Shown piece after piece: positions 34,489 to 53,761 of a stretch of 53,761 bases of DNA. The first letter of the stretch is position 1. Each line of letters begins with the position of its first letter. Source of the DNA: Rhodospirillaceae bacterium (lineage in GTDB: Bacteria; Pseudomonadota; Alphaproteobacteria; Dongiales; Dongiaceae); assembly GCA_016794165.1 (NCBI GenBank), contig JAEUKV010000051.1, positions 1 through 53,761 on the forward strand. The letters run 5' to 3'. A program made the translations under genes and the position numbers. Under the pieces are notes generated by a model. The model saw only the letters and a list, made by a program, of their open reading frames with translations. It was not told the DNA's origin and did not search any database.

Positions 34489-34500
34489 GCGAACTCTTCC

Positions 34501-35409: not shown

Positions 35410-35419
35410 GAGATTGGCC

Positions 35420-36238: not shown

Positions 36239-36251
36239 CCGCGGTCAGCGC

Positions 36252-38012: not shown

Positions 38013-39641
38013 TTACGATCCCCGCTGCTCGCTCTCCCTGATCAGGTCGGCGGCACGTTCGGCGATCATCACTACGGCGGCGTTGATGTTGCCGGTGGTC
38101 ATGTCCGGCATGACGGACGCATCCACCACGCGCAGCCCCTCGGCGCCGCGCACGCGCAATTCCTGGTCGACCACCGCCAGCGGATCGTTGTCGAGACCCA
38201 TCTTGCAGGTTCCCAGCGGATGGTGAACCGTGATGGCCGTCTTGCGGATGTGCTCGTCGATCTCGGCATCCGAGCCCTTGTCGCTTCCGGGGAAGAACTC
38301 CCGCTCGATGAAGGGGCGCATCGCGGGCTGCGCCGCCACCTCGCGCGCCATCCGCACTCCGGCGCGCAACGAACGCCAATCCCCCTCGGTGCCGAGAAAT
38401 CGCTGCAGGATGCGCGGATGTTCCGTCGGATCCTGCGATTTCAGGCTTACCGTGCCGCGGCTTTCCGGATGCAGCATGACGATGCGGCAGGCAAAGCCGT
38501 CCTTGAACGGCGCCTTGAACGGTTCGAGGTAGGGCCAGGCACCCAGCGGCGCCGCGGTCAGCAGGAACTGGATGTCCGGCAGCGGCAGATCCGGGCGGCT
38601 CTTGAGAAATGCGGTGACGCCGCCCGGCACGTCGGCGGCGAAACCCTTGCCCAGGAAATAGGCCTTGCCGAGCTCGCGCACGATGCGGTCATAACGCATC
38701 ATGTTGTAGAACGGGCTCGGTTCCTTGCGGTGATACATCAGGATCACCGAGACATGATCCTGCAGGTTGCGCCCAATGCCGGGCAGGCCGATGCGCACCG
38801 GAATGCCGAGACGCTTCAACTCCTCCGGATCGCCGATGCCGGAGAGTGTCAGCAATTGCGGCGAGTTGATCACGCCGCCGGAAAGGATCACCTCGCGCTT
38901 CGCCCGCACCACGCGTTTGACGCCGCGCTGCAGGAATTCAATGCCGACGGCGCGGCTGCCCTCCATCACGATCCCGGTCGCCAGTCCATGCACCTCGATG
39001 CTGAGGTTGGGGCGCTTGCGGGCCGGCTTCAGGTAGGCGGTGGCACCACTTGAGCGCCGGCCGTTGCGGATGGTCATCTGCAGGCGGCCGAAACCTTCCT
39101 GCCGGGCGCCGTTGTAATCGTCGGTCCAGCCATGCCCGGCGCTCTGCCCGGCATCGATGAAGCCCTGCAGCAGTGGATCCTGGTAATGGCAGTACTGGGT
39201 GCCGATAGGCCCGTCGCCTCCGCGAAAGGCGTTGCCACCGCCTTCCCAGCTTTCCTGCCTGCGGAAATAGGGCAGGGCCTTGTCGTAGGACCACCCGTCG
39301 AGCCCCGAAGCGGCCCAACGGTCGTAATCGCCGCGGTTGCCGCGCACATAGGCCATGGCATTGGTGGACGAGCAGCCGCCCACCACCTTGCCGCGGGCGC
39401 ATTCGACCGCGCGGCCGCCGACGCTGGCCTCGGGCTCGCAGAAGTAGTTCCAGTCGTGGAGCCGTTTCTGCAGGATCTTGCCCCAGCCAAGGGGAATATG
39501 AATCCAGGGGTCTCGGTCCCAACCGCCGGCTTCCAGTACCAGTACGGAGGTGTTGGGGTCGGCCGAGAGGCGATTGGCAAGTACGCAGCCGGCAGAACCG
39601 GCGCCGACAATTATGTAATCGTAGCTGGCGTCCTGGGCCAT
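38013..39641 (-). CDS. GMC-family FAD oxidoreductase, candidate 4-pyridoxic acid dehydrogenase
   Basis: The ATG at 39641 gives 542 residues starting [20 protein letters not shown], the FAD-binding motif. GMC signatures include [15 protein letters not shown] and [18 protein letters not shown]; the C-terminal active-site His lies in [13 protein letters not shown] enzymes oxidise primary alcohols. The B6 pathway needs an FAD enzyme that oxidises the 5-hydroxymethyl of 4-pyridoxate to FHMPC, and no other candidate is visible, so that assignment is proposed. A choline-dehydrogenase-like alcohol oxidase is the neutral alternative. Operator-like sites lie upstream at 39719-39758. Confidence 0.85.
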
Positions 39642-39718
39642 GGTGGATCCCCCGTCTGCGTCGGCCCCCGATTGCTCCCGGGGTCGCGCACCCCAGTCCG
39701 GACCATTCTGAGGGGATG

Positions 39719-39758
39719 CTCCAATTGGTCCGGCACCGATACCGAATTCGAACCAATT
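39719..39758. promoter_or_regulatory. Candidate GntR operators in front of the GMC gene
   Basis: The stretch holds TCCAATTGGTCC (39719-39730) and CGAATTCGAACCAATT (39743-39758). The reverse complement of the latter, AATTGGTTCGAATTCG, shares 13 bp with the site at 53242-53256 and AATTGGTTC with the palindrome at 40832-40854. It lies 80-120 bp before the GMC start. Confidence 0.55.
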
Positions 39759-39848
39759 TTTCACCCCTGTTACCAATGGCTAACACGGGGTGCTGCCATT
39801 CGACAAGCCACCGGCCGATTCCCTGCCGGCGCAATTGCTATCGCAAGG

Positions 39849-40664
39849 TTATTGCTGGGCGGTGCCGGCGGGGAAGGCGTGCTCGAAAATGTAGCGCTGC
39901 ACGTCGCTGAGGTGCTGGTGCATCAGTTCCTGGGCGCGGTCGCCCTGCCGGGCCGCGATCGCCGCCGAAATCTCGTGGTGGAAATCGGCATAGACAGACT
40001 GGCGCTTGTAGCAGTTCGCGTTTTCGCCCAGACGCCGCCAGCCCGTGTCGCGCTGACTGGCATGGAGCGTGTCGAACACGGCCAGGAACAGGGTGTTGCG
40101 TGCGACCTCGGCGATGGTCCGGTGAAAGCTGGCATCGGCCGCCTGATAGCTGGCGGGGTCGGCGGCCGACCTGGTTTCCTCGGCCAGGGATTGCAGGCGA
40201 TTGATCTCCGTCTGCGAGGCCCGGAAAGCCGCGAGGCGCGCCATCACTGGCTCGATTGCAAGGCGAACTTCGATCACTTCCAGCGGATTGGTATGGTCGA
40301 GGATCTGTTCGTAACTCTGGCGCGCGGCAGTCGCGCCGGGCAAGGCCCGGCCGGATGTCATCGCGGCGGTCATCAGTTCCGTCGCGGCGCCTGCGGCTTG
40401 CTGGCCGTTGCCCCCATTTTGGCCATTGCGATTGCCGTTGCTTCGCGTGACAAAGGTGCCGCGGCCCTGATGGCGCGAGATCTGGCCTTCCTGTTCCAGG
40501 ATATCGAGGGCGCGGCGCAGGGAGCGGCGACCGACACCCAACTCGCTCGCCAGGGAGCGTTCCGGCGGCATGCGGCCATCCCCGTCCCAGTCATGGCCGG
40601 CGATCAGCCGGCGCAGTTTGGCCAGGGTCGGGTCGTTGCGCTCGATGGTTGTTTCCGGGGGCAT
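39849..40664 (-). CDS. GntR-family regulator, FCD (FadR-like) subfamily
   Basis: This 271-residue protein has a winged helix at about 32-75 (MPPERSLASELGVGRRSLRRAL, then the wing SRHQGRGTFV), a Gly/Asn-rich linker near 75-90 and an all-helical FCD effector domain with putative metal ligands in DASFHRTIAE, DFHHEISAAI and HQHLSDV. It is divergent from the ten-gene B6 operon, with a perfect palindrome between. It is the likely B6-catabolism regulator, with a pyridoxine derivative as effector (inference). Confidence 0.88.
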   Translation of the reverse strand: MPPETTIERNDPTLAKLRRLIAGHDWDGDGRMPPERSLASELGVGRRSLRRALDILEQEGQISRHQGRGTFVTRSNGNRNGQNGGNGQQAAGAATELMTAAMTSGRALPGATAARQSYEQILDHTNPLEVIEVRLAIEPVMARLAAFRASQTEINRLQSLAEETRSAADPASYQAADASFHRTIAEVARNTLFLAVFDTLHASQRDTGWRRLGENANCYKRQSVYADFHHEISAAIAARQGDRAQELMHQHLSDVQRYIFEHAFPAGTAQQ

Positions 40665-40912: not shown

Positions 40913-42091
40913 ATGACTGCTCAGCGTATCAAGGCCGGGGAAAAAAAAGCCGCTGGCCTCGGCGACGGCAGCAACCTCCAGGCGGCACTCGACCAGCTTC
41001 ATGCCGATGTCGCCAAGGCCAACATGGCCGGCTATTGGGTGGTCGACCGCAGTGTCAAGAATGACGAAGACCGCCAGGTAATGGATACCCGCAAGGCGAT
41101 CCCTTTCCTGTGGCAGTACAAGGGAGATATCGAGCCGCTGCTCTATCGCTCGGCTGAACTGATCACGACCGAGAGTTCCGAGCGTCGCTCGCTCGTCCTG
41201 GTCAATCCGGGTCTGGCGCCCAAGCGCGCCACAACCACCAACATGTACGTCTCCTATCGCCTCAACGACCCCAACGAGATCATGCCTCCGCACCGGCATT
41301 CGCCCAACGCTATCCGGCTTGGTCTCATCGGAAATCAGAACTTCACCGGCGTCGAGGGCGAGAACATCGTCTTCGGACCCGGCGATCTGGTGCTGACGCC
41401 GCACGACACTTGGCACAACCATGGCAATCAGGGCGACGCGAACGCGATCAATCTGTCGGTTCTCGACCTTCCCCTGGCCGAGACCATGAACTGCATGTAT
41501 TTCGAGCACGACTATACGGAGGAGGAAGAAGGCATCCGCGTTGCGCGCAAGATGCAGTCGGAGCGCTTTCCGCCGACCTATTCGCAAATGGTCTACGGTC
41601 ATGGCGGGCTGATGCCGCGCTTCGTTTCGCACAATCGCGGTGCCGGGGCTGCTTCGCCGATGTATGTCTATCGCTATGACATGATGCGCGAAGCGCTGGA
41701 GAAGTTCCGCGACTGGGACGGCGACCCCTATGAGGCGCTGATGATCGAGTATGTCGATCCCACGAACGGCCTTTCCGTGTTCAAGACCATTACGTTTTTC
41801 ATGCAGATGCTGCGTCCGGGCGAGAAGACGCTGCCGTTGAAGCAGAGCGCCAGCCTGGTTGTCTCGCCCTTCGAGGGCCAGGGCCACAGCATCATCGGCG
41901 ACAAGAAGATCGCCTGGGACCGCTTCGATACGCTGGCGGTACCGGGTGGTTCCTGGTGCCAGCATGTCAATACCTCGGCCACGCAGCCGGCGATCCTGTT
42001 CGTTGCCAGCGACGAACCGGCGCTGAAGGCACTGGCTTTCTACCAGAAGCATGGCCGGAATCAGAACGGCGACATTGTCAAGCTGAGCTGA
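40913..42091 (+). CDS. Gentisate/salicylate 1,2-dioxygenase-like bicupin
   Basis: This 392-residue protein follows GGAGG and belongs to the ring-cleaving Fe(II) bicupin family. The N-terminal cupin has three His in the positions of the iron ligands: H127 and H129 in PPHRHSP and H168 in TWHNHGN. The spacing equals that of salicylate 1,2-dioxygenase as I recall it (119, 121, 160). The second cupin (from about 300; EGQGHSIIGDKKIAWDRFD) lacks the HxH pair. Such enzymes cleave between a hydroxyl- and a carboxyl-bearing ring carbon. As first gene of a B6 operon it may act on the hydroxypyridine dicarboxylate (inference). It may instead act on a different aromatic acid. Confidence 0.85.
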   Translation: MTAQRIKAGEKKAAGLGDGSNLQAALDQLHADVAKANMAGYWVVDRSVKNDEDRQVMDTRKAIPFLWQYKGDIEPLLYRSAELITTESSERRSLVLVNPGLAPKRATTTNMYVSYRLNDPNEIMPPHRHSPNAIRLGLIGNQNFTGVEGENIVFGPGDLVLTPHDTWHNHGNQGDANAINLSVLDLPLAETMNCMYFEHDYTEEEEGIRVARKMQSERFPPTYSQMVYGHGGLMPRFVSHNRGAGAASPMYVYRYDMMREALEKFRDWDGDPYEALMIEYVDPTNGLSVFKTITFFMQMLRPGEKTLPLKQSASLVVSPFEGQGHSIIGDKKIAWDRFDTLAVPGGSWCQHVNTSATQPAILFVASDEPALKALAFYQKHGRNQNGDIVKLS

Positions 42092-42131: not shown

Positions 42132-43259
42132 ATGGCACGTTCGAAAAACTGCAACTTGCTCGCCAATTTCGACTGCCCCGGCGGCGGTCAGGTCTGGGTC
42201 GAGAAGAACATCCTCTATGTCGGCCACATGCGCCAGCCGACCGGCACGACGATCGTCGACGTCTCGGATCCGCGCAAGCCGAAGACCCTGGCACGGATCG
42301 AGATGCCGCCCGGCTGGCATTCCCACAAGGTGCGCGTCGCCAACGACATTATGGTGGTCAATCACGAGCGCCAGGGAATGGAGGGCGATGCCGGTTTCGG
42401 CGGCGGCCTCGGCATCTATGACGTCTCGAAACCGGCCAATCCGCGCCTCATTTCGAAATGGCGTACCCATGGCAAAGGGGTGCATCGCTACGATTTCGAC
42501 GGCCGCTACGCCTATATCTCGCCGACCGCCGAGGGGTATGTCGGCAACATCGCCATGATTCTCGATCTCCAGAATCCGGATAAGCCCGAGGAAGTCGGAC
42601 GCTGGTGGATCCCTGGCCAGTGGCAGGCCGGCGGCGAGGAATATCCCTGGGACAACTGGACGCCGCCGCGCTGCCACCATCCATTGCGGGTCGGTAACCG
42701 GCTCTATGTGAGCTACTGGCATCACGGTTTTTTCATCCTCGACATCGAGGACATGGCGCGACCGCAGCTGGTCTCAGCTGTCAACACCTCGCCCGCCTTT
42801 CCGCACCCGACCCATACCTGCCTGCGCCTGAAGCAGAAACTCAAGGGCCGCGACATCATGGTTGTGGCCGATGAGGACGTGGCGAAGCTGTGGCCGGCGG
42901 CCCCCGCCTTTGCCTGGGTCTATGACATCACCAATGAGCATTGCCCGATCCCTATCTCCACCTTCCAGGTGGAGGGACTCGACAAGGACGGTTCGCCGCA
43001 GCCGCCGATGATGGGCTGCCATCAGCCATCGGAGCGATTCAATGGCACCATCATTCCCTTCGCCTGGTTCGCCCAGGGTCTGCGCCTGGTCGATTTCGCC
43101 GATCCGTTCAAGCCGGTTGAAGTCGGCTTCTACGAAACCGACGCGCCGCCGGGCTTCGACCTTGCCTCGTCCAACGACGTCACCATGGACGACCGTGGCA
43201 TCCTCTATCTGATCGACCGCCAGCGCGGCGTCGATATCATCGAAACGTCGGTATTCTAA
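42132..43259 (+). CDS. LVIVD-repeat beta-propeller protein, unknown function
   Basis: This 375-residue protein has repeated beta-propeller blades of LVIVD type (TTIVDVSDPRKPKTLAR, LGIYDVSKPANPRLIS, ILDIEDMARPQLVS, LRLVDFADPFKPVEVG). No signal peptide is evident. His-rich loops recur at equivalent blade positions: GWHSHKV, GVHRYDF, RCHHPLRV, HPTHTCLR and GCHQPSERF, a pattern seen in metal-binding propellers. It could therefore be an enzyme. It lies 40 bp after the cupin gene and 17 bp before RidA. I do not recognise a named function. Confidence 0.8.
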   Translation: MARSKNCNLLANFDCPGGGQVWVEKNILYVGHMRQPTGTTIVDVSDPRKPKTLARIEMPPGWHSHKVRVANDIMVVNHERQGMEGDAGFGGGLGIYDVSKPANPRLISKWRTHGKGVHRYDFDGRYAYISPTAEGYVGNIAMILDLQNPDKPEEVGRWWIPGQWQAGGEEYPWDNWTPPRCHHPLRVGNRLYVSYWHHGFFILDIEDMARPQLVSAVNTSPAFPHPTHTCLRLKQKLKGRDIMVVADEDVAKLWPAAPAFAWVYDITNEHCPIPISTFQVEGLDKDGSPQPPMMGCHQPSERFNGTIIPFAWFAQGLRLVDFADPFKPVEVGFYETDAPPGFDLASSNDVTMDDRGILYLIDRQRGVDIIETSVF

Positions 43260-43276: not shown

Positions 43277-43657
43277 ATGAGTGACGACATCATTCCGATC
43301 GGCAAGAAGAACCCGAACCTGCCATTCCACCCGGCCGCGCGCGCGGGAGATTTCATCTTTGTATCGGGACAAGTTGCCAAGGATGAGAACGGCAACATGT
43401 GCGTCGGCAACATCGAGGAAGAGACCCGCTGGACCCTGGAATCGATCAAGCGGATCCTGGCTTTGGATGGTGCCGATCTCGGCGATGTCGTAAAAGTGAC
43501 CGTCTATCTGGAAGACGCGCGAAACTTCGGCCGCTACAATCGAATTTTCGCGGAATACTTTCCGGACGGTCGGGTTTCGCGGACCACCGTGGAGGCGCGC
43601 GCCGCGATCGAATGCAAGCTCGAGATGGATGCCGTCGCCTACAAGCCCAAGCGTTGA
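43277..43657 (+). CDS. RidA-family imine/enamine deaminase
   Basis: This 126-residue protein has the RidA/YjgF/UK114 features FIFVSGQVAKDENG, DVVKVTVYLEDARNF and VSRTTVEARA. The catalytic-type Arg of RidA is present at R102, so imine hydrolysis is possible; many relatives without it are inactive. RidA hydrolyses 2-imino/enamine acids such as 2-iminopropionate. Its place after a ring dioxygenase suggests it processes an imine released from the pyridine ring (inference). Confidence 0.9.
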   Translation: MSDDIIPIGKKNPNLPFHPAARAGDFIFVSGQVAKDENGNMCVGNIEEETRWTLESIKRILALDGADLGDVVKVTVYLEDARNFGRYNRIFAEYFPDGRVSRTTVEARAAIECKLEMDAVAYKPKR

Positions 43658-43755: not shown

Positions 43756-44358
43756 ATGCTGCGAGTTCTCGGCCGCGCCACATCGGGCAACGTACAGAAG
43801 GTTCTGTTTCTGCTCGAGGAGATGAAACTGCCCTATCAGCGGGAAGATTACGGACGGCAGTTCAACAACACCCAGGATGCGAGCTATCTCGGCCTCAATC
43901 CCAACGGCAAGGTACCGACCCTGGTCGATGGCGACATCGCGGTTTGGGAATCGAACACCATCCTGCGCTATCTCGCGAACAAACATGGGGCGACGGCACT
44001 CTATCCCACCGACCCGGCGGCGCGCAGCCAGGTCGAACGCTGGATGGACTGGTTGCTGGCCTCACTCAATGGCCCCTACGTCGCCATCTTCAAGGAATCG
44101 AAGAAGCCGGCCGGCGAGCGAGCCGCCAGCTGGGACGCCGATGCCAAGGAACTGAAGGCGCAACTCGACATCCTGGCCAAGGGGACTGCCGGCCGCGAGT
44201 ATCTTGCCGGCAAGGACTTCACGCTGGCAGATATCAGCCTTGCGCCGATCGTGCATCGCTGCCTCGATTTTCCGGTCGATCTGCCGGGGTTGGAGGGACT
44301 GCGTGCCTGGCGCGACAAGGTGACATCGCGCCCGGCCTTCAAGAAGGCGGCCGGCTGA
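43756..44358 (+). CDS. Glutathione S-transferase family protein
   Basis: This 200-residue protein has an N-terminal thioredoxin-like domain (GRATSGNVQKVLFLLEEM; Ser10 is in the activating position) with the GSH-binding NPNGKVPTL and ESNTIL (E65, S66), and a helical C-terminal domain with FTLADISLAPIVHR. GST relatives act as GSH-dependent cis-trans isomerases after gentisate-type ring cleavage, so in this operon an isomerase or dehalogenase-like role is plausible. The substrate is unknown. Confidence 0.88.
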   Translation: MLRVLGRATSGNVQKVLFLLEEMKLPYQREDYGRQFNNTQDASYLGLNPNGKVPTLVDGDIAVWESNTILRYLANKHGATALYPTDPAARSQVERWMDWLLASLNGPYVAIFKESKKPAGERAASWDADAKELKAQLDILAKGTAGREYLAGKDFTLADISLAPIVHRCLDFPVDLPGLEGLRAWRDKVTSRPAFKKAAG

Positions 44359-44455
44359 GTGGAACGTGGTTGGCGAAGGCGGCAGCAAGACCGCCAGACA
44401 TGAATGGCCGGAAAAGATTAGCTGAGCGACGCGACAATTTCGCTTGAGGGAGCAG

Positions 44456-45373
44456 ATGACGACCGCAGCCGTGATCGGCCTGGGCACCATGGGACCGGGG
44501 ATTGTCGCCACGCTGGCGCGCGCCGGTGTGGCTGTCTGCGCTTACGATACCGACGCTGCTCAGCATGCCAGGGCGGCGGCCGGTTTTGATCTCGCGGCCA
44601 AGGTGCTGGATTCCCTGGCTGTTGCTACCCAGCCGGGCGGTTCGATCCGCATTGCCGACACGCTGGCGGGGGCCGTTGCCGGCGCTGACCTGGTGATCGA
44701 GAATGTGCCTGAGAAACTTGAACTCAAGATTGAGGTCTTCCGCGCCATCGAGGCTCTGGTGCGCCCGGATTGCGTCCTGGCTTCCGACACGTCCGGCATT
44801 CCCATCACACGCATCCAGGAAGGCCTCGCCAACCCGACGCGCGTGATCGGCATGCACTGGTCGAATCCACCGCACATCATTCCCATGATCGAGGTGGTTG
44901 CCGGCAAACGGACCGCGCCGGAGATCGTAACCTGGATGGTGGATCTCGTCCGGCGCATCGGCCATCTTCCCGTCGTGATCAAGCGGGACGTACCGGGATT
45001 CGTGGAGAACCGGGTACTCTACTCCGTGATGCGCGAATGCATCGACCTCGTTGAGCAGGGTGTCATCGATCCGGAGGATCTCGATACCTGTGTCTCCTGG
45101 GGCATCGGCTACAAATTGGCGGTTGTGGGGCCGATGGCGCTCCTCGACATGGCGGGCCTGGACATCTATCAAGCCGTCGGCAGCTATCTCAACAAGGAGC
45201 TGTGCGATCGCGACGACGTTGCCGGCTACGTCACCGATCGCACGGCCGCGGGCAAACTCGGCATGAAGAGCGGTGCCGGCATTTTCGACTATACACCCGA
45301 GCGAATTGCAGAACTGCGCGACTGGCGGGCCCGAAAACTGGTCGCCGTGCGCCAGGCGCTGCAGTCGCGATGA
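44456..45373 (+). CDS. 5-formyl-3-hydroxy-2-methylpyridine-4-carboxylate (FHMPC) 5-dehydrogenase
   Basis: The ATG at 44456 follows GAGGGAG and gives 305 residues. The fold is that of 3-hydroxyacyl-CoA dehydrogenases (AVIGLGTMGPGIVATLARAG for NAD). The catalytic His134 lies in GMHWSNPPHIIPMIE. Long blocks such as SDTSGIPIT, PGFVENRVLY and EDLDTCVSWGIGYK match the M. loti FHMPC dehydrogenase (mlr6793) as I remember it. It oxidises the 5-formyl of FHMPC to 3-hydroxy-2-methylpyridine-4,5-dicarboxylate. A plain 3-hydroxyacyl-CoA dehydrogenase is the less likely alternative. Confidence 0.88.
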   Translation: MTTAAVIGLGTMGPGIVATLARAGVAVCAYDTDAAQHARAAAGFDLAAKVLDSLAVATQPGGSIRIADTLAGAVAGADLVIENVPEKLELKIEVFRAIEALVRPDCVLASDTSGIPITRIQEGLANPTRVIGMHWSNPPHIIPMIEVVAGKRTAPEIVTWMVDLVRRIGHLPVVIKRDVPGFVENRVLYSVMRECIDLVEQGVIDPEDLDTCVSWGIGYKLAVVGPMALLDMAGLDIYQAVGSYLNKELCDRDDVAGYVTDRTAAGKLGMKSGAGIFDYTPERIAELRDWRARKLVAVRQALQSR

Positions 45374-45561
45374 GAATCCACCAGGTTTAGTCAGGCAAGG
45401 ACAAGAGGGAGGAAGCGAGGAAGTCGACCGGGACCATGGCAATCGCGCCACCATGAGATCAGGAACTGCGCGGCGCGGGGAGTACAGAGAGCGTGAAGCA
45501 AGCGCAGTATCCCGGAACGAGATGCGAAATGACAATTCACCGAAGAGCAGGAGGCTTCGAA

Positions 45562-46623
45562 ATGAGCAAATTCTCGAGAAGATCAGTAGCGCGGTCGGCA
45601 TTGGCCGCCGCCATGATGACCAGCGTGTTCGCCATCTCCGGTGGCGCGCTCGCGGCCGATGTCAAGTCGATCGCCGTGCTGACCCCGGAAGAGCCGACCG
45701 ATTTCGGCTGGAACCAGCAGGGCCATGACGCCGCCAAGGCAGTAGCCGAGAAGTTCGGCCTGGAATTCATCCCGGCGACCGGTCTCGGGTATGGCGATGT
45801 GCATCCGCAATTGCGCGAAGTGGCCGATGACGGCGCCAGCCTGATCATCGCCCATGCCAGCGGTTACAACACGGCGGCGCCCGAAGTCGGTGCCGAGAAG
45901 AATGTGGCGGTGGCAATCGTCGACCGGCCGGACGCCAACAAGCCGGGCGCCGTCGCCGATTATACGCTGAGCGGCCATGAAGGCGCCTATCTCGCTGGTA
46001 TTCTGGCGGCCAAGACCTCGACCACGGGGACCGTGGGCATCGTCGTCTCGGGCGAACCGCCGTCATGGAACTCGCAGTCGGCGGCTTTCGCGCAGGGCGT
46101 CAAGGCGGCAAATGCGGACATGAAAGTCCTCTATGCCGTCATCGGCCCGGCCGCCTATTCCGATGCCGCCGGCGGCCGCCGCGTCACCGATCAGGTCATA
46201 GCCGCCGGTGCGGACGTGATCTTCGGCCAGGGCGACGGTGCCACCTTCGGTATGCTGCAGGCGACCGAGACCGGCAAGTCGGCCTCGGGCGGCAAGGTCC
46301 TGTTCATCGACGTGATCGGTGACAAGAGCGGCATGGAAGGCGCAACCAGTCTGCTGTCCTCGGTCGTCTGGAACCTGGTCCCGGTCTATACGGCCATGGT
46401 CGAGGATCTGAAGGCCGACAAGTTCGGTACCCGTGGCTACTCGATCCAGCTCGCCGATGATTCCGTGCAGCTGATCAGGACCGGCAACGGGTCGGACGAG
46501 GCCTGGGCGGCAGTCGAGGAGGTCAAGAAGCAGATCATCGATGGAAGCCTGAAGATCGAGCCGGTCTGGGATGCCAAGGACGTTCGCGCCCTGATGAGCT
46601 CGGTAACCGACGCCCCGCAATAA
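45562..46623 (+). CDS. BMP-family ABC transporter substrate-binding protein
   Basis: The ATG at 45562 follows AGGAGG (45549-45554) and gives 353 residues with a signal peptide (about 1-31, SGGALAA-DVK). It has the BMP/Med/PnrA fold hallmarks TPEEPTDFGWNQQGHDAAK and GHEGAYLAGILAAKT. BMP proteins bind nucleosides and, in spirochaetes, riboflavin. Standing between FHMPC dehydrogenase and 4-pyridoxolactonase genes, a B6 vitamer ligand is likely here (inference). Confidence 0.88.
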   Translation: MSKFSRRSVARSALAAAMMTSVFAISGGALAADVKSIAVLTPEEPTDFGWNQQGHDAAKAVAEKFGLEFIPATGLGYGDVHPQLREVADDGASLIIAHASGYNTAAPEVGAEKNVAVAIVDRPDANKPGAVADYTLSGHEGAYLAGILAAKTSTTGTVGIVVSGEPPSWNSQSAAFAQGVKAANADMKVLYAVIGPAAYSDAAGGRRVTDQVIAAGADVIFGQGDGATFGMLQATETGKSASGGKVLFIDVIGDKSGMEGATSLLSSVVWNLVPVYTAMVEDLKADKFGTRGYSIQLADDSVQLIRTGNGSDEAWAAVEEVKKQIIDGSLKIEPVWDAKDVRALMSSVTDAPQ

Positions 46624-46695
46624 ACCCGCGTTGGCGATCATGTGCACAGGGCCACGCCGCGGGGTTCGCGACGTGGCCCGCTGCAGAGTGGAAGA

Positions 46696-48312
46696 ATGAG
46701 CGAAATTGAACCGCCGGCGATGTCGTCCGGGATATCGCATGCCGCACCGCCCGTCGTCGCCGTCCGCCAGGTTACCAAGCGGTTTCCGGGTGTTCTCGCC
46801 AATGACCGGATCTCGCTCGAGTTCCGCGCTGGCGAGGTGCATGTCCTCCTCGGCGAGAATGGGGCGGGCAAATCCACCCTGATCGGCATTCTCGCTGGCA
46901 TGCAGCAACCCGACGAGGGTGAAGTCCTGGTCGACGGCCGCGCGGTCACGATCGGTTCGCCGCGGGAAAGTCTGGAATACGGCATCGGCACGGTTTTCCA
47001 GCATGTGTTGCTGGTGCCGAGCCTGAGTGTAATCGAAAACCTGATGCTCGGCGGCAATTGGTGGCAGCGCCTGAGCCGCGGCCCGGCTCTGGCGCGGTTC
47101 AGGGAACTCTCGGCCCTGCTCGGCGTGACCATTGATCCCGATGCCGAGGTTGGGCGCCTGTCCCTCGGCGAGCAGCAGCAGGTTGAGATCATGCGCGCCC
47201 TGTGGCGCGGCGAGAAGGTCCTGATCCTCGACGAACCCACCTCGATGCTGACCCCGCAGGGTGTCCACGACCTTGGCCAGGTCATGCGCCGTCTTCGCGA
47301 CAAGGGAGTCGCCCTCATCCTGATCACCCACAAGCTGATGGAAGCCTATGAATTCGGTGATCGCATCTCGGTCCTGCGCCTCGGCCGCGTGGTGGGTGAC
47401 ATCCCGCCCGAACGTCTGCGATCGATGAGCGAGGCGGAAACCACGGAGGCCGTCATCGAGATGATGTTCGGTTCCACCGCTGAACATGCGCGCGACGCGG
47501 AGACGCTGGTTGGCCGTGGTCGCCCGGTGCACAGGGATCGCACCGTGGACCGCAGCGCCCCGCCGCTCCTTGCGGTTCGCGACCTGGAAACCGAGGCGAC
47601 ACGCGGCGAATGCCCGTTGCGGCATGTGAGTTTCGATTTGTGGCCGGGCGAAGTGCTCGGCATCGCCGGGGTCGATGGCAATGGGCAGAAGCACCTGGCC
47701 GAAGTCCTCGCCGGGCAGCGCGCAGTGGCCGCCGGTCGGATCGACCTTGCCGGCATGGACGTGACGGATGACGGCGTTCCGGCACGACGGCGCCACGGTG
47801 TACGCTATGTCACTGACGAGCGGCTGGGCGAGGGCACCGTCGGCATTTTTTCGGTTGCCACCAATCTGGTTCTTAAGGAAATCGGTACCGAGCCGCTCTG
47901 GCGGCGCGGCTGGAGCGATTGGGGTCGAATCCACGAGCACGCGCGCGACCAGATCGAGCGCAACGATATCCGCACCCCTTCGGAAAAGACCCCGGTCGCG
48001 CGGCTGTCCGGCGGCAACATCCAGAAGGTGCTGCTGGCGCGCGAACTCAACACCGATGCCAGAGTGGCAGTGTTCAACAAGCCCACTTACGGGCTCGACC
48101 TGCAGAACACCCGCATCGCCCACGAACGGATCGTCACCAGCGCCGATCGTGGCGTGGCCGTGGTCGTTGTTTCCACCGATCTCGACGAACTCATCCAGGT
48201 GAGCGACCGAATCGGCGTCATGTTCCAGGGCCGCCTTGCCGGAATCGTCGAGAACGGTCCGGATGTGGAGCGCCGGGTCGGCCTCCTGATGACCGGGGCG
48301 GAGGCGGCATGA
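46696..48312 (+). CDS. ABC transporter ATP-binding protein with two ATPase domains
   Basis: The ATG at 46696 gives 538 residues. The first domain is canonical: Walker A GENGAGKST (53-61), signature LSLGEQQQVEIMRAL, Walker B LILDEPTSML. The second is degenerate (GVDGNGQKHL at Walker A, NKPTYGLD at Walker B) with an intact signature LSGGNIQKVLLAREL, as usual in this nucleoside-type group. Its stop overlaps the next permease (ATGA). Confidence 0.9.
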   Translation: MSEIEPPAMSSGISHAAPPVVAVRQVTKRFPGVLANDRISLEFRAGEVHVLLGENGAGKSTLIGILAGMQQPDEGEVLVDGRAVTIGSPRESLEYGIGTVFQHVLLVPSLSVIENLMLGGNWWQRLSRGPALARFRELSALLGVTIDPDAEVGRLSLGEQQQVEIMRALWRGEKVLILDEPTSMLTPQGVHDLGQVMRRLRDKGVALILITHKLMEAYEFGDRISVLRLGRVVGDIPPERLRSMSEAETTEAVIEMMFGSTAEHARDAETLVGRGRPVHRDRTVDRSAPPLLAVRDLETEATRGECPLRHVSFDLWPGEVLGIAGVDGNGQKHLAEVLAGQRAVAAGRIDLAGMDVTDDGVPARRRHGVRYVTDERLGEGTVGIFSVATNLVLKEIGTEPLWRRGWSDWGRIHEHARDQIERNDIRTPSEKTPVARLSGGNIQKVLLARELNTDARVAVFNKPTYGLDLQNTRIAHERIVTSADRGVAVVVVSTDLDELIQVSDRIGVMFQGRLAGIVENGPDVERRVGLLMTGAEAA

Positions 48313-49397
48313 GCATCGAAACCAAAGTTGATTCGCTGCCAGGCGACCCGTTCCGGGGTGAACGTGCGCGCGAGATCCAGGCGGCGATCCTGCGCGTCCT
48401 CATTCCGATCCTGGCGGCGCTGGTGATCGGCGGTCTCATCCTGCTGATCCTCGGCAAGAACCCGCTCGAATATTATGGCTATGTCCTGCGCCGCGGCCTG
48501 CTGACCTGGGGCGGGTTGCAGGAGACCTTCACGCGCATGGCGCCGCTGCTGCTGATCTCGGCGGGGCTCATCGTCGCCTTCCGTGCCGGCATCTGGAATC
48601 TGGGTTGCGACGGCCAGTTCCTGCTGGCGGCGGTTATTTCCGCGGCGGTGGGCCCGGCCCTCATTGACGTCCTGCCGCGCGGCATCACCCTGGTCGCCTG
48701 CATGGTGGTCTCGGTGCTGGTAGCGGCTCTCTGGTCCCTGATCCCGGCGATTCTGAAGTCGCGCTATGGCATCAACGAAATCATTACCTCGCTGATGATG
48801 AGTTTCCTCGGCATCAGCTTCGCCAATGTGCTCGTGAAGCTGTTCTTCGCCGATCCCGGCACCACTGTGCCGCAGACCCGCGATCTCGCCGTTGTCGACC
48901 GCCTGCCGCGCCTGTTCGACACGACCATCCATGCCGGGCTGCTGATCGCCCTTGCCGTGGTGATCCTGGTTCATCTGATGATGACCCGCACTGCCTTCGG
49001 CCTGAAGCTGCAAGTAGTGGGTGCCAATCCCGCCGCCGCCATCCATGCCGGGCTCAATGTGGGCTGGCTGACGATCCTGACCTTCGCCATCAGCGCCGGT
49101 TTGATCGGTCTCGGCGGGTCGATCGAAATTCTCGGCGTCTGGGGCAATGTGCGGGCAGACTGGAATCCGGCCTTCGGCCTGCTCGTCGTGCCGTTGGTGT
49201 TCCTTGCCCGCTTCAATGGCTATGCGGTGATCGGCTTCACCCTGTTCTTCTCGGCCCTGATGATCGGCGGCGATTCCGCGGCGCGCCGGGTCGGTGTGCC
49301 GAGCGATTTTGTGCTGGTGCTGGTTGCCCTGGTGCTGATTTTTCTGGCGGTGGTCGAATACCTCGATCATCTGCGGCGCAAACGGACCACGGCCTGA
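48309..49397 (+). CDS. ABC transporter permease, nucleoside (BmpB/YufP) type
   Basis: The ATG at 48309 overlaps the upstream stop and gives 362 residues; longer in-frame starts run into the ATPase gene. About nine helices are predicted, with hallmarks FRAGIWNLGCDGQF, GINEIITSLMMSFLG and LGGSIEILGVWGNV of this permease family. It is partnered by the next gene. Confidence 0.9.
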   Translation: MSIETKVDSLPGDPFRGERAREIQAAILRVLIPILAALVIGGLILLILGKNPLEYYGYVLRRGLLTWGGLQETFTRMAPLLLISAGLIVAFRAGIWNLGCDGQFLLAAVISAAVGPALIDVLPRGITLVACMVVSVLVAALWSLIPAILKSRYGINEIITSLMMSFLGISFANVLVKLFFADPGTTVPQTRDLAVVDRLPRLFDTTIHAGLLIALAVVILVHLMMTRTAFGLKLQVVGANPAAAIHAGLNVGWLTILTFAISAGLIGLGGSIEILGVWGNVRADWNPAFGLLVVPLVFLARFNGYAVIGFTLFFSALMIGGDSAARRVGVPSDFVLVLVALVLIFLAVVEYLDHLRRKRTTA

Positions 49398-49400
49398 CTC

Positions 49401-50336
49401 ATGGAAGGACTCCTCACCCAGCCGTTCCTCACGGCACTGCTCTTCGGCGCGGTCACCGCCGGCATACCGTTGCTGCTCGCGGGGCTTGGCGAACAGATCT
49501 CGGAGAAGGCCGGGGTTCTCAACATCGGTATCGAAGGGATGATGCTCTTTGGCGCCTATACCGGCTTCGTTGCCGCCTATTATTCCGGCTCCTTCGGGTT
49601 GGGTTTCCTTGCTGGAGGACTGGGCGGGATGCTGGTGGCCAGCCTCGTCATGCTCTTCTGCATCCGTTTCGGCCTGAACCAGATCGTCATCGGCATCGCC
49701 GTGACCCTGGGCTTCGAGGGCCTCACCTCGCTGCTGCATCACTTCCAGTTCAGTCGCACCTATCCGCGTCTTTCGGCAGCACCTACCCTGGCCATTCCGG
49801 GCCTGTCCGAGATTCCCGTGCTGGGGCCGGGGCTCTTCCAGCAGAACGCGATGGTCTATCTGGCGGTGGCGCTGGTAGTCTTCATGGCCTGGCTGTTTCG
49901 CAACACTTATGTCGGCCTCAATCTCGAGGCGGCGGGCAGCAAGCCGGCGGCGCTAGATGCCGCCGGGGTCGATGTCCTGCGCACTCGGGCCTGCGCCGTA
50001 TTGAGCACCGGTTTCCTGGCAGGTGTCGGGGGTGCCTTCATGGCCAATGTCGGGGCTGGCATCTTCGTGCCCTTCATGACCGGCGGCGCCGGTTTCATCG
50101 GCATCGTGCTCGCCATGCTGGCGCGGGGGCGGCCAATCTGGGTCCTGCTTGGGGCCATCCTGTTCGGCGTCAGCCTCGCCATGACCACCGCGCTGCAGGT
50201 TGCCGGCGTCAACATTCCGACCGACGTTGTGCAGATGCTGCCATTCGCCATGGTGATGCTGGTTCTGGTAATCTTTGCCCGCCACAGCGTATTGCCGCCG
50301 GCCTTGGGCTTGCCCTATGTGCGGGGCGATCGGTAA
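49401..50336 (+). CDS. ABC transporter permease, nucleoside (YufQ) type
   Basis: This 311-residue protein has about eight to nine helices and the hallmark LGEQISEKAGVLNIGIEGMML near its N-terminus, with GLNQIVIGIAVTLG and an alternating TM pattern. It starts 3 bp after the preceding permease. Together with the binding protein and ATPase it completes the importer. Confidence 0.9.
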   Translation: MEGLLTQPFLTALLFGAVTAGIPLLLAGLGEQISEKAGVLNIGIEGMMLFGAYTGFVAAYYSGSFGLGFLAGGLGGMLVASLVMLFCIRFGLNQIVIGIAVTLGFEGLTSLLHHFQFSRTYPRLSAAPTLAIPGLSEIPVLGPGLFQQNAMVYLAVALVVFMAWLFRNTYVGLNLEAAGSKPAALDAAGVDVLRTRACAVLSTGFLAGVGGAFMANVGAGIFVPFMTGGAGFIGIVLAMLARGRPIWVLLGAILFGVSLAMTTALQVAGVNIPTDVVQMLPFAMVMLVLVIFARHSVLPPALGLPYVRGDR

Positions 50337-50375: not shown

Positions 50376-51182
50376 ATGTCCGACACGAAAGTCTATCTGC
50401 TTGATGGTGGAACGCTGGTGATCGACGGCTTTCACGCATTCTGGAATCGCGGCCCGGCAGGCGAAGTACGGTTTCCCTGCTATTCGGTGCTGATCGAGCA
50501 CAAGGATGGCCGCTACATGTTCGACACCGGCTATGACTTCGACCATGTCATGCGCGTGCTGCCATTCGAAAAGCCGATCCAGGACGAAAGCCAAAAAGTC
50601 CCCGGGCAGCTCGCCAAGGTCGGCCTCAAGACCAGCGACATCAACTATGTCATCAACTCGCACTATCACTTCGATCATTGCGGCGGGAACAAGCACCTGC
50701 ATGAGGCGTGTACCATCTGCCATGCCAAGGAACTGGAACAGAGCGCCAACTGCCAGCCCTTCGAGCATCTCGGCTATTCCGATCTGACCTTCGCGCCGGA
50801 TATCGCGAAGGGGAAAGGCGTCGAGCTGCCGCCGGATCCGGCCCTCGACATGTACACGCCGAAGTTCGAGACCCTGAGCGGCGATCAGGAGATCGCCAAG
50901 GGGCTATGGCTGTTCGAGACCCCGGGGCATACCGCCGGTCATTACAGCCTGATGGTGGAGTTGAAGAACCGCCGGCCGATGCTGTTCACGGCCGATGCCT
51001 GCTACAGCAAGAAGAACATGGACATGATGTGCATCTCCAGCTTCCACCTCGATCCCACCGCCAGCCTCAATTCGATGAAGCGGTTGAAGGCGCTGGCCGA
51101 AAAGCACGATGCGGAACTGTTCTTCTCCCACGACCTGGAGAGCTTCCAGACCTACCAGACCGGCGCCAATTTCTATTCCTGA
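50376..51182 (+). CDS. 4-pyridoxolactonase
   Basis: This 268-residue metallo-beta-lactamase-fold enzyme hydrolyses 4-pyridoxolactone to 4-pyridoxate. The zinc motif NSHYHFDH gives H96, H98, D100 and H101; H185, D207 and H252 supply the rest. These numbers equal those of the M. loti enzyme (mlr6805) as I recall them, and the N-terminus DTKVYLLDGGTLVIDG matches it closely. It is preceded by GGGAGG and closes the plus-strand operon. A generic N-acyl homoserine lactonase is the older annotation for this family. Confidence 0.9.
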   Translation: MSDTKVYLLDGGTLVIDGFHAFWNRGPAGEVRFPCYSVLIEHKDGRYMFDTGYDFDHVMRVLPFEKPIQDESQKVPGQLAKVGLKTSDINYVINSHYHFDHCGGNKHLHEACTICHAKELEQSANCQPFEHLGYSDLTFAPDIAKGKGVELPPDPALDMYTPKFETLSGDQEIAKGLWLFETPGHTAGHYSLMVELKNRRPMLFTADACYSKKNMDMMCISSFHLDPTASLNSMKRLKALAEKHDAELFFSHDLESFQTYQTGANFYS

Positions 51183-51198
51183 GGTTGCCCGGGAAACC

Positions 51199-51232
51199 AA
51201 AAAAGCGGCCCGCATCCGGGGGGATGCGGGCC
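51199..51232 (-). terminator. Intrinsic terminator between convergent B6 genes
   Basis: GGCCCGCATCC (51207-51217) pairs perfectly with GGATGCGGGCC (51222-51232) over an 11-bp stem with a 4-nt loop. Six A at 51199-51204 give a U-run on the minus strand, so it ends the pyridoxal-dehydrogenase operon. It may also act on the plus strand, where the tail is CTTAGTT. Confidence 0.88.
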
Positions 51233-51252
51233 CTTAGTTCCTCTGGGATGGT

Positions 51253-51993
51253 TCAGTAACGCACCATGCCGGCGTCGACATTGAGCGCCTGCCCGGTGAT
51301 CCAGTGCGCTTCCTCGGAAGCAAGGAAGGCGACCGCCGGTACGATATCGTTCGGCATGCCCTTGCCCTTGATCGCCTGCAGCATCTCGACGAAGCCGAAG
51401 GCATCCTTGTGCGGGGTGGTCTGCACGCCTTCGGTATCGACGAGGCCCGGCATGACCGTGTTGACCGTGATCTTGTAGGCGCCGAGTTCCGTGGCAAGGG
51501 CCCGGCCGAAGGCGAGGACGCCGCCCTTGGAGGCGACGTAATGCGCCATGTTGGGTGTGCCGGCCAGCATGCTGTTGGAGCCGAAATTGACGATGCGTCC
51601 ATAGCCGTTCTTGCGCATCAACTCCGACCCGGCGCGGCACATCAGATAGAGCCCGTCATAATTCACCCGGGCCACGCGACGCCATTCTTCGAAGGTAAGG
51701 TCGTCCCATTTCACGAACGGGACGATGGCCGCCACGTTGACCAGCACATCGAGCTTGCCGGCCTTGGCCGTGACCGCCTCGAACAGCTTGGCGACCGAAT
51801 CGGGCTCGCCGATATCGACTTGCTGGCCGAACGACTTGCCGCCGATTTCCTTGGCGGTGGCACCGGCACCCGCACCGTTGATGTCGGCGGCGATCACGGT
51901 GGCGCCCTCCTGGCCCAGCCGCAAGGCCACCGCCTTGCCCATGCCCTGCGCGGCACCGCTCACCACCGCCACGCGACCTTCGAATCTGCGCAT
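51253..51993 (-). CDS. Pyridoxal 4-dehydrogenase (SDR family)
   Basis: The ATG at 51993 follows AGGGAG and gives 246 residues. It oxidises pyridoxal (hemiacetal) to 4-pyridoxolactone with NAD. SDR motifs are GAAQGMGKA for NAD, GSNSML for the Ser and YVASKGG for the Tyr/Lys. The blocks ASIVPFV-like AAIVPFVKWDD, AGTPNMAHYVASKGG and NVDAGMVRY match M. loti PLDH (mlr6807) as I recall. It lies 44 bp after the aminotransferase gene in the same direction. Confidence 0.88.
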   Translation of the reverse strand: MRRFEGRVAVVSGAAQGMGKAVALRLGQEGATVIAADINGAGAGATAKEIGGKSFGQQVDIGEPDSVAKLFEAVTAKAGKLDVLVNVAAIVPFVKWDDLTFEEWRRVARVNYDGLYLMCRAGSELMRKNGYGRIVNFGSNSMLAGTPNMAHYVASKGGVLAFGRALATELGAYKITVNTVMPGLVDTEGVQTTPHKDAFGFVEMLQAIKGKGMPNDIVPAVAFLASEEAHWITGQALNVDAGMVRY

Positions 51994-52037
51994 TCTCTGC
52001 TCCCTCACTCTGGTTGGATCTTGTTGTTCCGGAATGG

Positions 52038-53222
52038 TCAGGCCTTGCCCTGGGCGATCACGGCGCTCGCCGCCTCGATGCCGGCGCCGAGATCGACCTT
52101 GCGGCCGAGTTTCCGGAGGGCGCCGCCGAAGGCGGTGAGGGCCACGATGGCATAGATCGGCTCGGCCACTGGCCCCATATGGCCGATGCGGATCAGCTTG
52201 CCGAGGGTGTCGTTGCGCCCGGAAGAGAACACCACGCCGAATTCGGCCCGCGCCGCCGCGATGATGTCGCTGTCCTTCATGCCGTCCGGCACCTTGACCG
52301 CCGTGCATGTGGGAGACGCGATGGCCTCGGATTTGGCCCAGAGCGAGAGGCCCATGGCCTGGATGCCGGCGCGGGTCGCCCTGGCGGTAAGGGCATGGCG
52401 ATGCCAGACCTTTTCCGCGCCCTCCTCAAGATATTGATCGAGTGCCGCGTCGAGCCCGTTCACCTCCGCCACCGAGGGGGTAAAGGGGAAGGGTTTATCC
52501 TTGCTCCAGGCATCCTTCCAGTCCTTGAGGCTGAGCGCCGAGGCGAAGGGGGCCTTCGGATTGGCCGCGATATGCTGCCAGGCTCGCTCGCTCACCGACA
52601 TCACGGTAAGGCCGGGTGCCCCGCCCAGGCATTTTCCCGGGCCGGTGATGAAGACATCGGCGAAACAATCGTCGGGGTGAATGTCCATCCCGCCGAAGGA
52701 GGAAACCGCATCGACAATGAGAAGCGCACCATGGTCGCGCACGATCTTGCCGATCTCGCGGGCCGGGTTGATCGTGCCCGACGGGGTATCGTGATGCACC
52801 AGGGAGACGACCTTGATGTCCGGTCGCTGCTTGAAGGCGGCGGCGACCGCCGCCGGGCCGATCGATTCGTTGAACGGCACCTCGATCTCGACCATCTCCT
52901 TGTGATAGCGCGCCGACCAATAGCCGAAGCCCTTGCCGTAGACGCCTGAAGCGAGATTGAGCACCACATCGTCGGGGCCGATCAGCGAGGCGGCCGTGGC
53001 CTCGATCCCCGGCGCCGGCTCGCAATGGAGAATGAGGGCCGGCTGTGCCACCCGCATCGCCTTCGCTGCCTTGCGCGCGACGTCCTCGTAGAATTGCTGG
53101 AACCAGGGGTCGTAATCATACTCCACCGGCCGTGCCAGTCCCTGCAGGACGCGGGGATAGAGGGCCACTGGTCCGGCCGAAAGTGTGATCACCGGCGGTT
53201 TGATGCTGGATCTGGATGACAT
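52038..53222 (-). CDS. ppaT: Pyridoxamine-pyruvate aminotransferase
   Basis: This 394-residue class V aminotransferase converts pyridoxamine plus pyruvate to pyridoxal plus alanine. E68 in LHCEPA, D171 in VDAVSSFGG, the Schiff-base K197 in TGPGKCLGG, R336 and R345 sit at the same positions as in the M. loti enzyme (mlr6806), and the long block DDVVLNLASGVYGKGFGYW matches. This enzyme uses pyridoxal as a substrate rather than a bound PLP cofactor. Alanine-glyoxylate aminotransferases are relatives. It is divergent from the pyridoxine oxidase-like gene. Confidence 0.92.
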   Translation of the reverse strand: MSSRSSIKPPVITLSAGPVALYPRVLQGLARPVEYDYDPWFQQFYEDVARKAAKAMRVAQPALILHCEPAPGIEATAASLIGPDDVVLNLASGVYGKGFGYWSARYHKEMVEIEVPFNESIGPAAVAAAFKQRPDIKVVSLVHHDTPSGTINPAREIGKIVRDHGALLIVDAVSSFGGMDIHPDDCFADVFITGPGKCLGGAPGLTVMSVSERAWQHIAANPKAPFASALSLKDWKDAWSKDKPFPFTPSVAEVNGLDAALDQYLEEGAEKVWHRHALTARATRAGIQAMGLSLWAKSEAIASPTCTAVKVPDGMKDSDIIAAARAEFGVVFSSGRNDTLGKLIRIGHMGPVAEPIYAIVALTAFGGALRKLGRKVDLGAGIEAASAVIAQGKA

Positions 53223-53241
53223 CTTGGTTCGGCCTCCCCCA

Positions 53242-53326
53242 TTTGGTTCGAATTGGCGCTTGGGCGCCGTAACATTGAATTCGATGATAGACTGGCGGCG
53301 AAAAAAGTGAAAACACTATCGCCAGT
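53242..53326. promoter_or_regulatory. Divergent regulatory region of the aminotransferase and pyridoxine oxidase genes
   Basis: Between the two divergent starts lie TTTGGTTCGAATTGG (53242-53256), which shares 13 bp with the GMC-gene site at 39743, and a half-site CAATTGGTTCC at 53334-53344. A separate nested inverted repeat, ACTGGCG (53291-53297) with CGCCAGT (53320-53326) around AGTG-AAAA-CACT, could be a second operator or cruciform. Confidence 0.55.
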
Positions 53327-53349
53327 GCCGCGACAATTGGTTCCGTAGG

Positions 53350-53761
53350 ATGCCAAAAACTGCCGACGATTGGTTCGATATTCTGGTAATTGGTGCGGGA
53401 ACAGCGGGGGCCGTGCTGGCCGCCCGGCTGAGCGAGGAGTCCGACCGGGTCGTTGGCCTGGTGGAGGCGGGTGGCCAGGCCGGCAACCCGATGATCGCCC
53501 GAATGATCGCTCAGCCGGCGCAGTGGCCGCTGCTGCAAGGAAGCGAGATCGATTGGCGCTATCGTACGGTGCCGCAGCGCCATACCGCGGGCCGGATTCA
53601 TGATTGGCCGCGCGGCCGCATCATCGGCGGATCCACCGCGATCAACGCCATGGCCCATGTGCGCGGCCATCCCAGCGATTTCGACGGCTGGGTGACAGAT
53701 GGCTGCACTGGCTGGGGTTATGCCGACCTGCTGCCCTATTTCATCAGATCGGAGACCTACA
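53350..53761 (+). CDS. Pyridoxine 4-oxidase-like GMC oxidoreductase (3' end missing)
   Basis: The frame runs from the ATG at 53350 to the window edge without a stop (137 residues). It starts MPKTADDWFDILVIGAGTAG, an FAD-binding motif, followed by the GMC signature RGRIIGGSTAINAMAHVRGH. It would oxidise the 4-hydroxymethyl of pyridoxine to pyridoxal. Assignment over another GMC alcohol oxidase rests on resemblance to M. loti pyridoxine 4-oxidase (LVEAG, RYRTVPQ-type and HDWPRG motifs) and on the divergent aminotransferase. The C-terminal catalytic His is outside the window. Confidence 0.82.
   Translation, partial: MPKTADDWFDILVIGAGTAGAVLAARLSEESDRVVGLVEAGGQAGNPMIARMIAQPAQWPLLQGSEIDWRYRTVPQRHTAGRIHDWPRGRIIGGSTAINAMAHVRGHPSDFDGWVTDGCTGWGYADLLPYFIRSETY

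Follow-up and report, generated by a model that had tools for sequence, protein, structure and literature searches.

We analyzed a stretch of 53,761 nucleotides from a Rhodospirillaceae bacterium of the alphaproteobacterial family Dongiaceae (GCA_016794165.1), hereafter referred to as the window, which is the whole of contig JAEUKV010000051.1 (C295) in a draft genome of 3.74 Mb (332 contigs, 98.67% complete, 3.44% contaminated). It carries a vitamin B6 catabolic cluster that, judging from its sequence, probably has a changed second half, in which a cupin module would open the ring of 3-hydroxy-2-methylpyridine-4,5-dicarboxylate (HMPDC) in place of the decarboxylase and MHPCO of Mesorhizobium loti. 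A preliminary description had covered four B6 enzymes at the contig end, and the cluster extends upstream of the lactonase among them to ~38 kb, beyond the positions considered there. Enzymes were identified with NCBIfam equivalog models against their curated cut-offs, and also with Pfam, solved protein chains and Foldseek. The genes around the predicted ring-opening step are:

38013-39776, minus strand: GMC oxidoreductase, probable 4-pyridoxate dehydrogenase; 68% identity to the M. loti CJ3sym GMC protein (the gene presumably being mlr6792) that adjoins FHMPC dehydrogenase; the TTG start is uncertain.
39849-40664, minus strand: GntR/FCD regulator (Pfam GntR and FCD), divergent from the cupin gene; relatives are similarly placed in many cupin-type loci.
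40913-42091, plus strand: bicupin, predicted HMPDC 3,4-dioxygenase from co-occurrence, module exclusion and active site; top Foldseek matches gentisate 1,2-dioxygenase 3bu7 and salicylate 1,2-dioxygenase 2phd.
42132-43259, plus strand: LVIVD propeller, predicted metallohydrolase; found in 39 of 39 cupin loci, with profile and Foldseek matches to the 5hrm fold.
43277-43657, plus strand: RidA/RutC-family protein; PF01042 at 85.9 bits (cut-off 27.3), TIGR00004 at 75.5 bits, below its cut-off of 106.
43756-44358, plus strand: GST-like protein, possible glutathione-dependent isomerase; Pfam GST_N and GST_C, 150 bits to the GST 4iel.
44444-45373, plus strand: FHMPC 5-dehydrogenase, which makes HMPDC; NF042925 at 510.4 bits, a narrow pass of the cut-off of 500.

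On the last of these models, the FHMPC dehydrogenase of M. loti CJ3sym scores 561. The locus of that strain (L090) runs from pyridoxine oxidase through AAMS hydrolase, MHPCO, a YbhB/PEBP gene, a class-II aldolase and the GMC gene to FHMPC dehydrogenase, transporters, lactonase and the pyridoxamine-pyruvate transaminase (PPAT). Its MHPCO, aldolase and hydrolase match the Protein Data Bank entries 3alj/3gmb (851 bits), Mlr6791 2z7b (462 bits) and 3kxp (555 bits), and no NCBIfam model passes for any of the three. According to passages in PMC3538738, the published M. loti route uses MHPCO, HMPDC decarboxylase and AAMS hydrolase.

To compare gene neighbourhoods, the window FHMPC dehydrogenase was scanned against the contig collection and the best 80 of its 272 relatives were kept (L044-L048, the same places as L051, L060, L058, L108 and L099, are not among the 80). 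This revealed two mutually exclusive modules. Half of the loci (40/80) carry MHPCO, the decarboxylase and the PEBP gene and gave no hits for the cupin, the propeller, RidA or the GST; the AAMS hydrolase is also present in 39 of these, and in the fortieth (L106) the contig starts inside MHPCO. Another 39, in which all M. loti ring-opening genes are absent, have the cupin and the propeller, accompanied by both RidA and GST in 33 loci, by GST only in two and by neither in four. The one remaining locus, L070, begins at a contig end and shows GST only. No locus among the 80 has both modules. At the level of genomes, an MHPCO relative (E ≤ 1e-30) was found in one of 16 cupin-type genomes, a Mesorhizobium genome (39% identity), and a cupin relative in three of 19 MHPCO-type genomes (29-35%). 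In Mesorhizobium, both modules are found in the stretch from the oxidase/regulator to FHMPC dehydrogenase, where the M. loti module comes before the GMC gene and the cupin module after it; they thus share an interval, not a slot. On a tree of FHMPC dehydrogenases (80 rows, the window plus 79 loci, with L070 omitted as truncated), at least three module changes are needed, of which the starred branches force only one, and the rows of L096 and L124 are long. Two loci under the same species name, L114 (M. loti DSM 2626) and L090, carry opposite ring-opening modules.

The M. loti ring-opening genes were also sought in the window genome as a whole, where the HMPDC decarboxylase (mlr6791 type) had no match at E ≤ 0.001 and the best MHPCO match reached 34 bits. 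The same searches gave 844-874 bits for MHPCO and 477-545 bits for the decarboxylase in two control Mesorhizobium genomes, one of them the query's own. Location of the classical genes elsewhere in the window genome was considered and rejected, as the MHPCO and decarboxylase searches found no orthologue. Among the other five cupin genomes found first, the decarboxylase stayed at or below 63 bits (33% identity), and MHPCO at or below 36 bits in all except G289.

Presence of the cupin follows that of FHMPC dehydrogenase across genomes. Of 385 genomes of the class, six carry a cupin orthologue, with scores of 554-910 bits at 63-100% identity, and the next hit reaches 287 bits. FHMPC dehydrogenase (E ≤ 1e-80) occurs in exactly these six, 0.06-2.4 kb from the cupin gene. 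A sample of 17 genomes from the order, five of which are common to both samples (three with the cupin, two without), gave both genes in 14 genomes and neither in the same three. The lactonase (E ≤ 1e-40, 61-88% identity) was detected in all 15 cupin-bearing genomes tested and in none of three lacking the cupin, and the cluster is also carried by two single-contig genomes (G428 and G429). As related genomes do not count as independent samples, these figures are higher than the number of independent events. Even three genomes whose cupin, FHMPC dehydrogenase and propeller genes stand apart from other B6 genes have the lactonase. Together, these results make membership of the cupin in the B6 module well supported. 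At L099 (8695-12065), L122 (8786-12066) and L125 (8708-12068), the cupin, FHMPC dehydrogenase and propeller genes form a trio, with neither RidA nor GST nor any further B6 gene within 10 kb; a gene that we label HyuA-type hydantoinase/oxoprolinase-like from its sequence lies downstream, and the lactonase gene is at another place in these genomes.

The cupin belongs to the gentisate/salicylate-type dioxygenase superfamily, as it combines a bicupin fold (Foldseek 4e-28 to 3bu7; ~25-28% identity to 3bu7/2phd), a three-histidine metal site and the arginines for carboxylate and phenolate. We compared 39 cupin-module sequences (the window and 38 loci, leaving out a 178-aa fragment at L054) with 24 other relatives, carrying the numbering over from salicylate dioxygenase by our own alignment. 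The iron ligands H127, H129 and H168 are invariant in 39/39 cupins and 24/24 other relatives, together with R91, R135 and H170, the equivalents of salicylate dioxygenase R83, R127 and H162. Three other positions separate the two sets: that of D174 is serine (S182) in 39/39 cupins and aspartate in 24/24 relatives, that of W172 is asparagine (N180) in the cupin-module sequences and tryptophan in 24/24 relatives, and that of Q108 is arginine (R116) in the cupin-module sequences and glutamine in 21/24 relatives. In passages of PMC10306065, R83, Q108, R127 and H162 of salicylate dioxygenase contact the carboxylate, R127 aids deprotonation of the phenol, and D174 and W104 bind the 5-hydroxyl of gentisate. 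Passages of PMC11264262 describe Gln108, Arg127, His162, Trp172 and Asp174 as conserved in all gentisate dioxygenases, and conservation of Asp174 is also stated in part of PMC4019311. The W104 position is tyrosine, as in most gentisate dioxygenases, so that of the 5-hydroxyl contacts only the aspartate is lost. The residues thus point to a pocket in which the salicylate-like core for binding the head of the substrate is kept, the aspartate for reading gentisate has been lost and one positive charge gained; the added arginine would suit a second carboxylate. Assignment of the cupin as a gentisate 1,2-dioxygenase was rejected, given a score of 205 on the NCBIfam model (cut-off 442) and the loss of the conserved Asp174. 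The label of one plasmid relative of the cupin is only 'cupin domain-containing protein'.

The propeller protein is more strongly conserved than the cupin (82% mean column identity in 31 sequences versus 70%), with many invariant histidine, glutamate and aspartate residues, which suggest a metal site. Its structure model (pLDDT 82) resembles 5hrm, with a profile match at E 6e-11, a Foldseek match at 1.7e-17 and Z 30.9 over 347 residues (23% identity). WD40 propellers tie with 5hrm at Z ~30 (12% identity), and the function is therefore not readable from the fold. RidA-family proteins hydrolyse imines and enamines, and both GST and RidA are known from other pathways as well.

From this gene content, B6 compounds would be handled as follows. 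By close homology, they would be taken up by the B6 ABC transporter; pyridoxamine would be converted to pyridoxal by PPAT and pyridoxine to pyridoxal by pyridoxine 4-oxidase; the SDR would yield 4-pyridoxolactone and the lactonase 4-pyridoxate; and the GMC protein would form FHMPC, which FHMPC dehydrogenase would oxidise to HMPDC. At this point, we infer, HMPDC would be neither decarboxylated nor then oxygenated by MHPCO. The three-histidine Fe(II) cupin may instead treat it as an aza-salicylate (hydroxyl at C3, carboxylate at C4) and cut the C3-C4 bond, and the predicted product would be CH3-C(COOH)=N-CH=C(COOH)-CO-COOH, a pyruvate-type imine/enamine. Absence of the decarboxylase would fit, as a salicylate-type enzyme should require the carboxylate ortho to the hydroxyl. 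By analogy with 5-nitrosalicylate, in which the nitro group lowers the pKa of the hydroxyl (stated in part of PMC10306065), the electron-poor pyridine may lower that of the HMPDC hydroxyl. The propeller, as a putative metallohydrolase, and RidA, where present, might hydrolyse the product to pyruvate, ammonia and a smaller oxo-acid, and the GST is perhaps a glutathione-dependent isomerase. Taken as one scheme, it is on balance somewhat favoured that the decarboxylase/MHPCO/AAMS-hydrolase module and the cupin module were swapped in B6 clusters whose other parts are shared, with C3-C4 cleavage by the Fe(II) cupin and conversion of a pyruvate imine to pyruvate and ammonia through the propeller and RidA, not to acetate and succinic semialdehyde.

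Several observations weigh against ring opening of HMPDC by the cupin module. The W104 position (Tyr112) is tyrosine in 39/39 cupins and in 17/24 other relatives, and the G106 position (114) is alanine in 38/39 cupins and serine in the window, with glycine in 22/24 relatives; the tyrosine and the alanine speak for a gentisate-like rather than a salicylate-like pocket. Passages of PMC11264262 call salicylate dioxygenase unique in its family for cleaving monohydroxylated substrates, and HMPDC is monohydroxylated. The structure model of the cupin is modest (pLDDT 75). RidA is missing from six and GST from four of the 39 cupin loci within the fetched flanks, and the roles given to the propeller, RidA and GST are guesses from their families. 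FHMPC dehydrogenase falls below its curated cut-off in two of the six class genomes and in four of the 14 order genomes, and one of the six (G071) is only 82% complete. Four of the six (G340, G071, G163 and G289) are without a close 4-pyridoxate dehydrogenase (best GMC match 44-46%), and another enzyme may serve this step in them. G289 carries, besides the cupin module, two tandem MHPCO-like flavoproteins (C37:82444-84662; 41-43%, 259-275 bits). Finally, the AAMS hydrolase was found in 0/39 cupin-type loci, having been sought in the loci only and not in whole genomes, and the PEBP gene in 0/39, likewise not sought genome-wide.

Some of these points would also fit an earlier opening of the ring, in which the cupin acts on 4-pyridoxate or FHMPC and the FHMPC dehydrogenase homologue oxidises the ring-opened product. 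Both compounds bear the salicylate motif (3-hydroxyl, 4-carboxylate), some cupin genomes are without a close 4-pyridoxate dehydrogenase, and the FHMPC dehydrogenases straddle the curated cut-off. The window, however, has a 4-pyridoxate dehydrogenase candidate at 68% identity and an FHMPC dehydrogenase above the cut-off, and the glutamine-to-arginine change would suit an extra carboxylate; we regard an earlier opening as unlikely.

It is quite improbable that an unrelated aromatic pathway of the gentisate/salicylate type, made up of the cupin, propeller, RidA and GST, just happens to lie next to the B6 genes. The nearest solved proteins are indeed gentisate and salicylate dioxygenases, the residues at 112 and 114 resemble those of gentisate dioxygenases, and GST and RidA are not confined to one pathway. 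Against this, the cupin has lost the aspartate of all known gentisate dioxygenases and scores less than half the gentisate cut-off, its presence or absence tracks FHMPC dehydrogenase in the 385 and 17 genomes and the lactonase in 18/18, and in Mesorhizobium the stretch from the regulator to FHMPC dehydrogenase has this module in place of the M. loti ring-opening genes. We give a similarly small chance to the propeller doing the key chemistry (e.g., decarboxylation) and the cupin acting afterwards: the propeller is the better conserved of the two and never missing from the 39 cupin loci, but its nearest solved relative is a phosphotriesterase, and the kept carboxylate-binding arginines of the cupin would idle once the 4-carboxylate is lost. 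The slimmest chance belongs to an ordinary M. loti pathway throughout, with its decarboxylase, MHPCO and AAMS hydrolase encoded outside the cluster and the cupin module a mere neighbour, which the MHPCO-like proteins of G289 and of one cupin-type Mesorhizobium genome and the 332-contig draft state of the window genome favour, whereas that genome is 98.7% complete and yields at most 34 bits for MHPCO and no decarboxylase match with controls scoring high, and the modules exclude each other in the 80 loci, the only places in which the AAMS hydrolase was sought.

Downstream of FHMPC dehydrogenase, ring opening of HMPDC by the cupin module would be fed by the B6 transporter and by the four enzymes of the preliminary description:

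45493-46623, plus strand: B6 ABC transporter substrate-binding protein; NF047927 at 462.4 bits (cut-off 400).
46642-48312, plus strand: B6 ABC transporter ATP-binding protein; NF047930 at 824.2 bits (cut-off 670).
48309-49397, plus strand: B6 ABC transporter permease 2; NF047929 at 556.6 bits (cut-off 400).
49401-50336, plus strand: B6 ABC transporter permease 1; NF047928 at 551.5 bits (cut-off 465).
50376-51182, plus strand: 4-pyridoxolactonase, 268 aa; NF047925 at 487.5 bits (cut-off 325), metal ligands present.
51207-51232, minus strand: GC-rich hairpin of 11 pairs, nine of them G-C; T run on the minus strand only.
51253-51993, minus strand: SDR pyridoxal 4-dehydrogenase; NF047923 at 409.4 bits (cut-off 325), 292 bits to 3ndr/3nug/3rwb; the start is our choice, and the longest open reading frame reaches 52308.
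52038-53222, minus strand: PPAT, a class-V aminotransferase; NF046070 at 647.5 bits (cut-off 600).
53350-53761, plus strand: pyridoxine 4-oxidase, first 137 codons; the remainder is in contig C284, to L007:1334, through a 141-bp exact overlap.

The four-enzyme identification is correct and is ordinary annotation: the open reading frames of the lactonase, SDR, class-V aminotransferase and GMC start, the last clipped by the contig end, lie where they had been placed, three of the proteins pass NCBIfam equivalogs and the GMC protein is closest to pyridoxine 4-oxidase. Bases 1-141 of C284 are exactly window 53621-53761, which joins two contigs of the draft genome, and the joined GMC protein of 534 aa scores 456.8 bits to pyridoxine 4-oxidase 4ha6 and 456.5 to 3t37 (next 291); 3t37, labelled 'probable dehydrogenase', is presumably the same protein as 4ha6. 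Each protein is far closer to its B6 enzyme than to generic relatives, with 375 bits versus 97 to AiiA for the lactonase, 292 versus 182 for the SDR, and 568 bits to 2z9u/2z9v versus 134 to the next solved aminotransferase for PPAT. The scores thus rule out a generic lactonase or an alanine-glyoxylate aminotransferase, the outcome that the preliminary description had named as its refutation. The entries 2z9u/2z9v carry the label 'aspartate aminotransferase', and we take them to be the M. loti PPAT.

All 11 residues named at the outset are found at their numbers. The seven lactonase ligands (H96, H98, D100, H101, H185, D207 and H252) recur as the same letters at the same positions of 3aj3, which aligns without gaps (151/267 identities). 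For the aminotransferase, E68, K197, R336 and R345, which we take to be the defining residues of PPAT, are conserved in the aligned 2z9u, but one number lower there (window 9-389 corresponds to chain 8-388); the published M. loti numbering is taken to equal that of the window. A terminator shared by the convergent genes had also been proposed. There is a hairpin between them, but its T run is on the minus strand only, a pattern consistent with termination of the aminotransferase/SDR unit, so that the proposal is only half supported; the terminator scan gave four sites versus 2.3 expected by chance, this one having the longest stem, and the promoter scan gave two weak sites versus 1.1 expected. 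Gene order differs from M. loti, as had been noted, and the main difference is the ring-opening module, outside the part described then.

In the interval from FHMPC dehydrogenase to the gene for the B6 substrate-binding protein, L085, L094, L104, L109, L064 and L090 carry one of two extra transporter-like sets, which we label ABC2 and TRAP and which are found in both cluster types. On the other side, the cluster is adjoined in the window (33020-37313, minus strand) by genes for an isochorismatase-fold hydrolase, an SDR, a Gfo/Idh/MocA oxidoreductase, a TauE-type permease and a sulfate-type ABC ATPase.

The known ring-opening genes are absent from 39 of the 80 FHMPC-dehydrogenase loci, and the gap thus appears repeatedly, both in relatives of Dongia and in several strains of Mesorhizobium. 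The cupin, LVIVD propeller, RidA and GST gain a concrete and testable role. If the proposed cleavage holds, the ring of vitamin B6 would have a third route of opening, and a pyridine would join the substrates of salicylate-type three-histidine dioxygenases. Titles and abstract openings among the matches listed on B6 catabolism or an alternative route described none of this kind; most subscription journals lay outside this coverage, so it may have been published.

Compared with known systems, the cupin shares with the gentisate and salicylate 1,2-dioxygenases (3bu7, 2phd) the bicupin fold, the three-histidine iron site, the R83/R127/H162 equivalents and, with most of the gentisate enzymes, the tyrosine at 104, and differs from them in D174 to serine, W172 to asparagine and Q108 to arginine and in falling below the gentisate equivalog cut-off. 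The propeller shares its fold with the haloalkylphosphorus hydrolase/phosphotriesterase of Sphingobium sp. TCM1 (5hrm), compared by fold and profile only, the window protein being shorter (375 aa). The gentisate pathway with a glutathione-dependent maleylpyruvate isomerase follows the same logic of a ring-cleaving cupin and then a GST-fold protein, whereas the predicted route involves a nitrogen-containing ring, RidA and the propeller, and its GST lies below all listed NCBIfam cut-offs and far below that of maiA (59 versus 171). Another of the closest systems is B6 degradation pathway I, the 4-pyridoxate route of Pseudomonas MA-1 and M. loti MAFF303099, with which the window shares pyridoxine 4-oxidase, pyridoxal 4-dehydrogenase, PPAT, the lactonase, the GMC 4-pyridoxate dehydrogenase, FHMPC dehydrogenase and the B6 ABC transporter. 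In contrast to pathway I, the window cluster is without the HMPDC decarboxylase, MHPCO, AAMS hydrolase and PEBP genes and has the cupin-propeller-RidA-GST module and other putative regulators, and this replaced ring-opening set suggests that the B6 ring is broken by a route not yet described.

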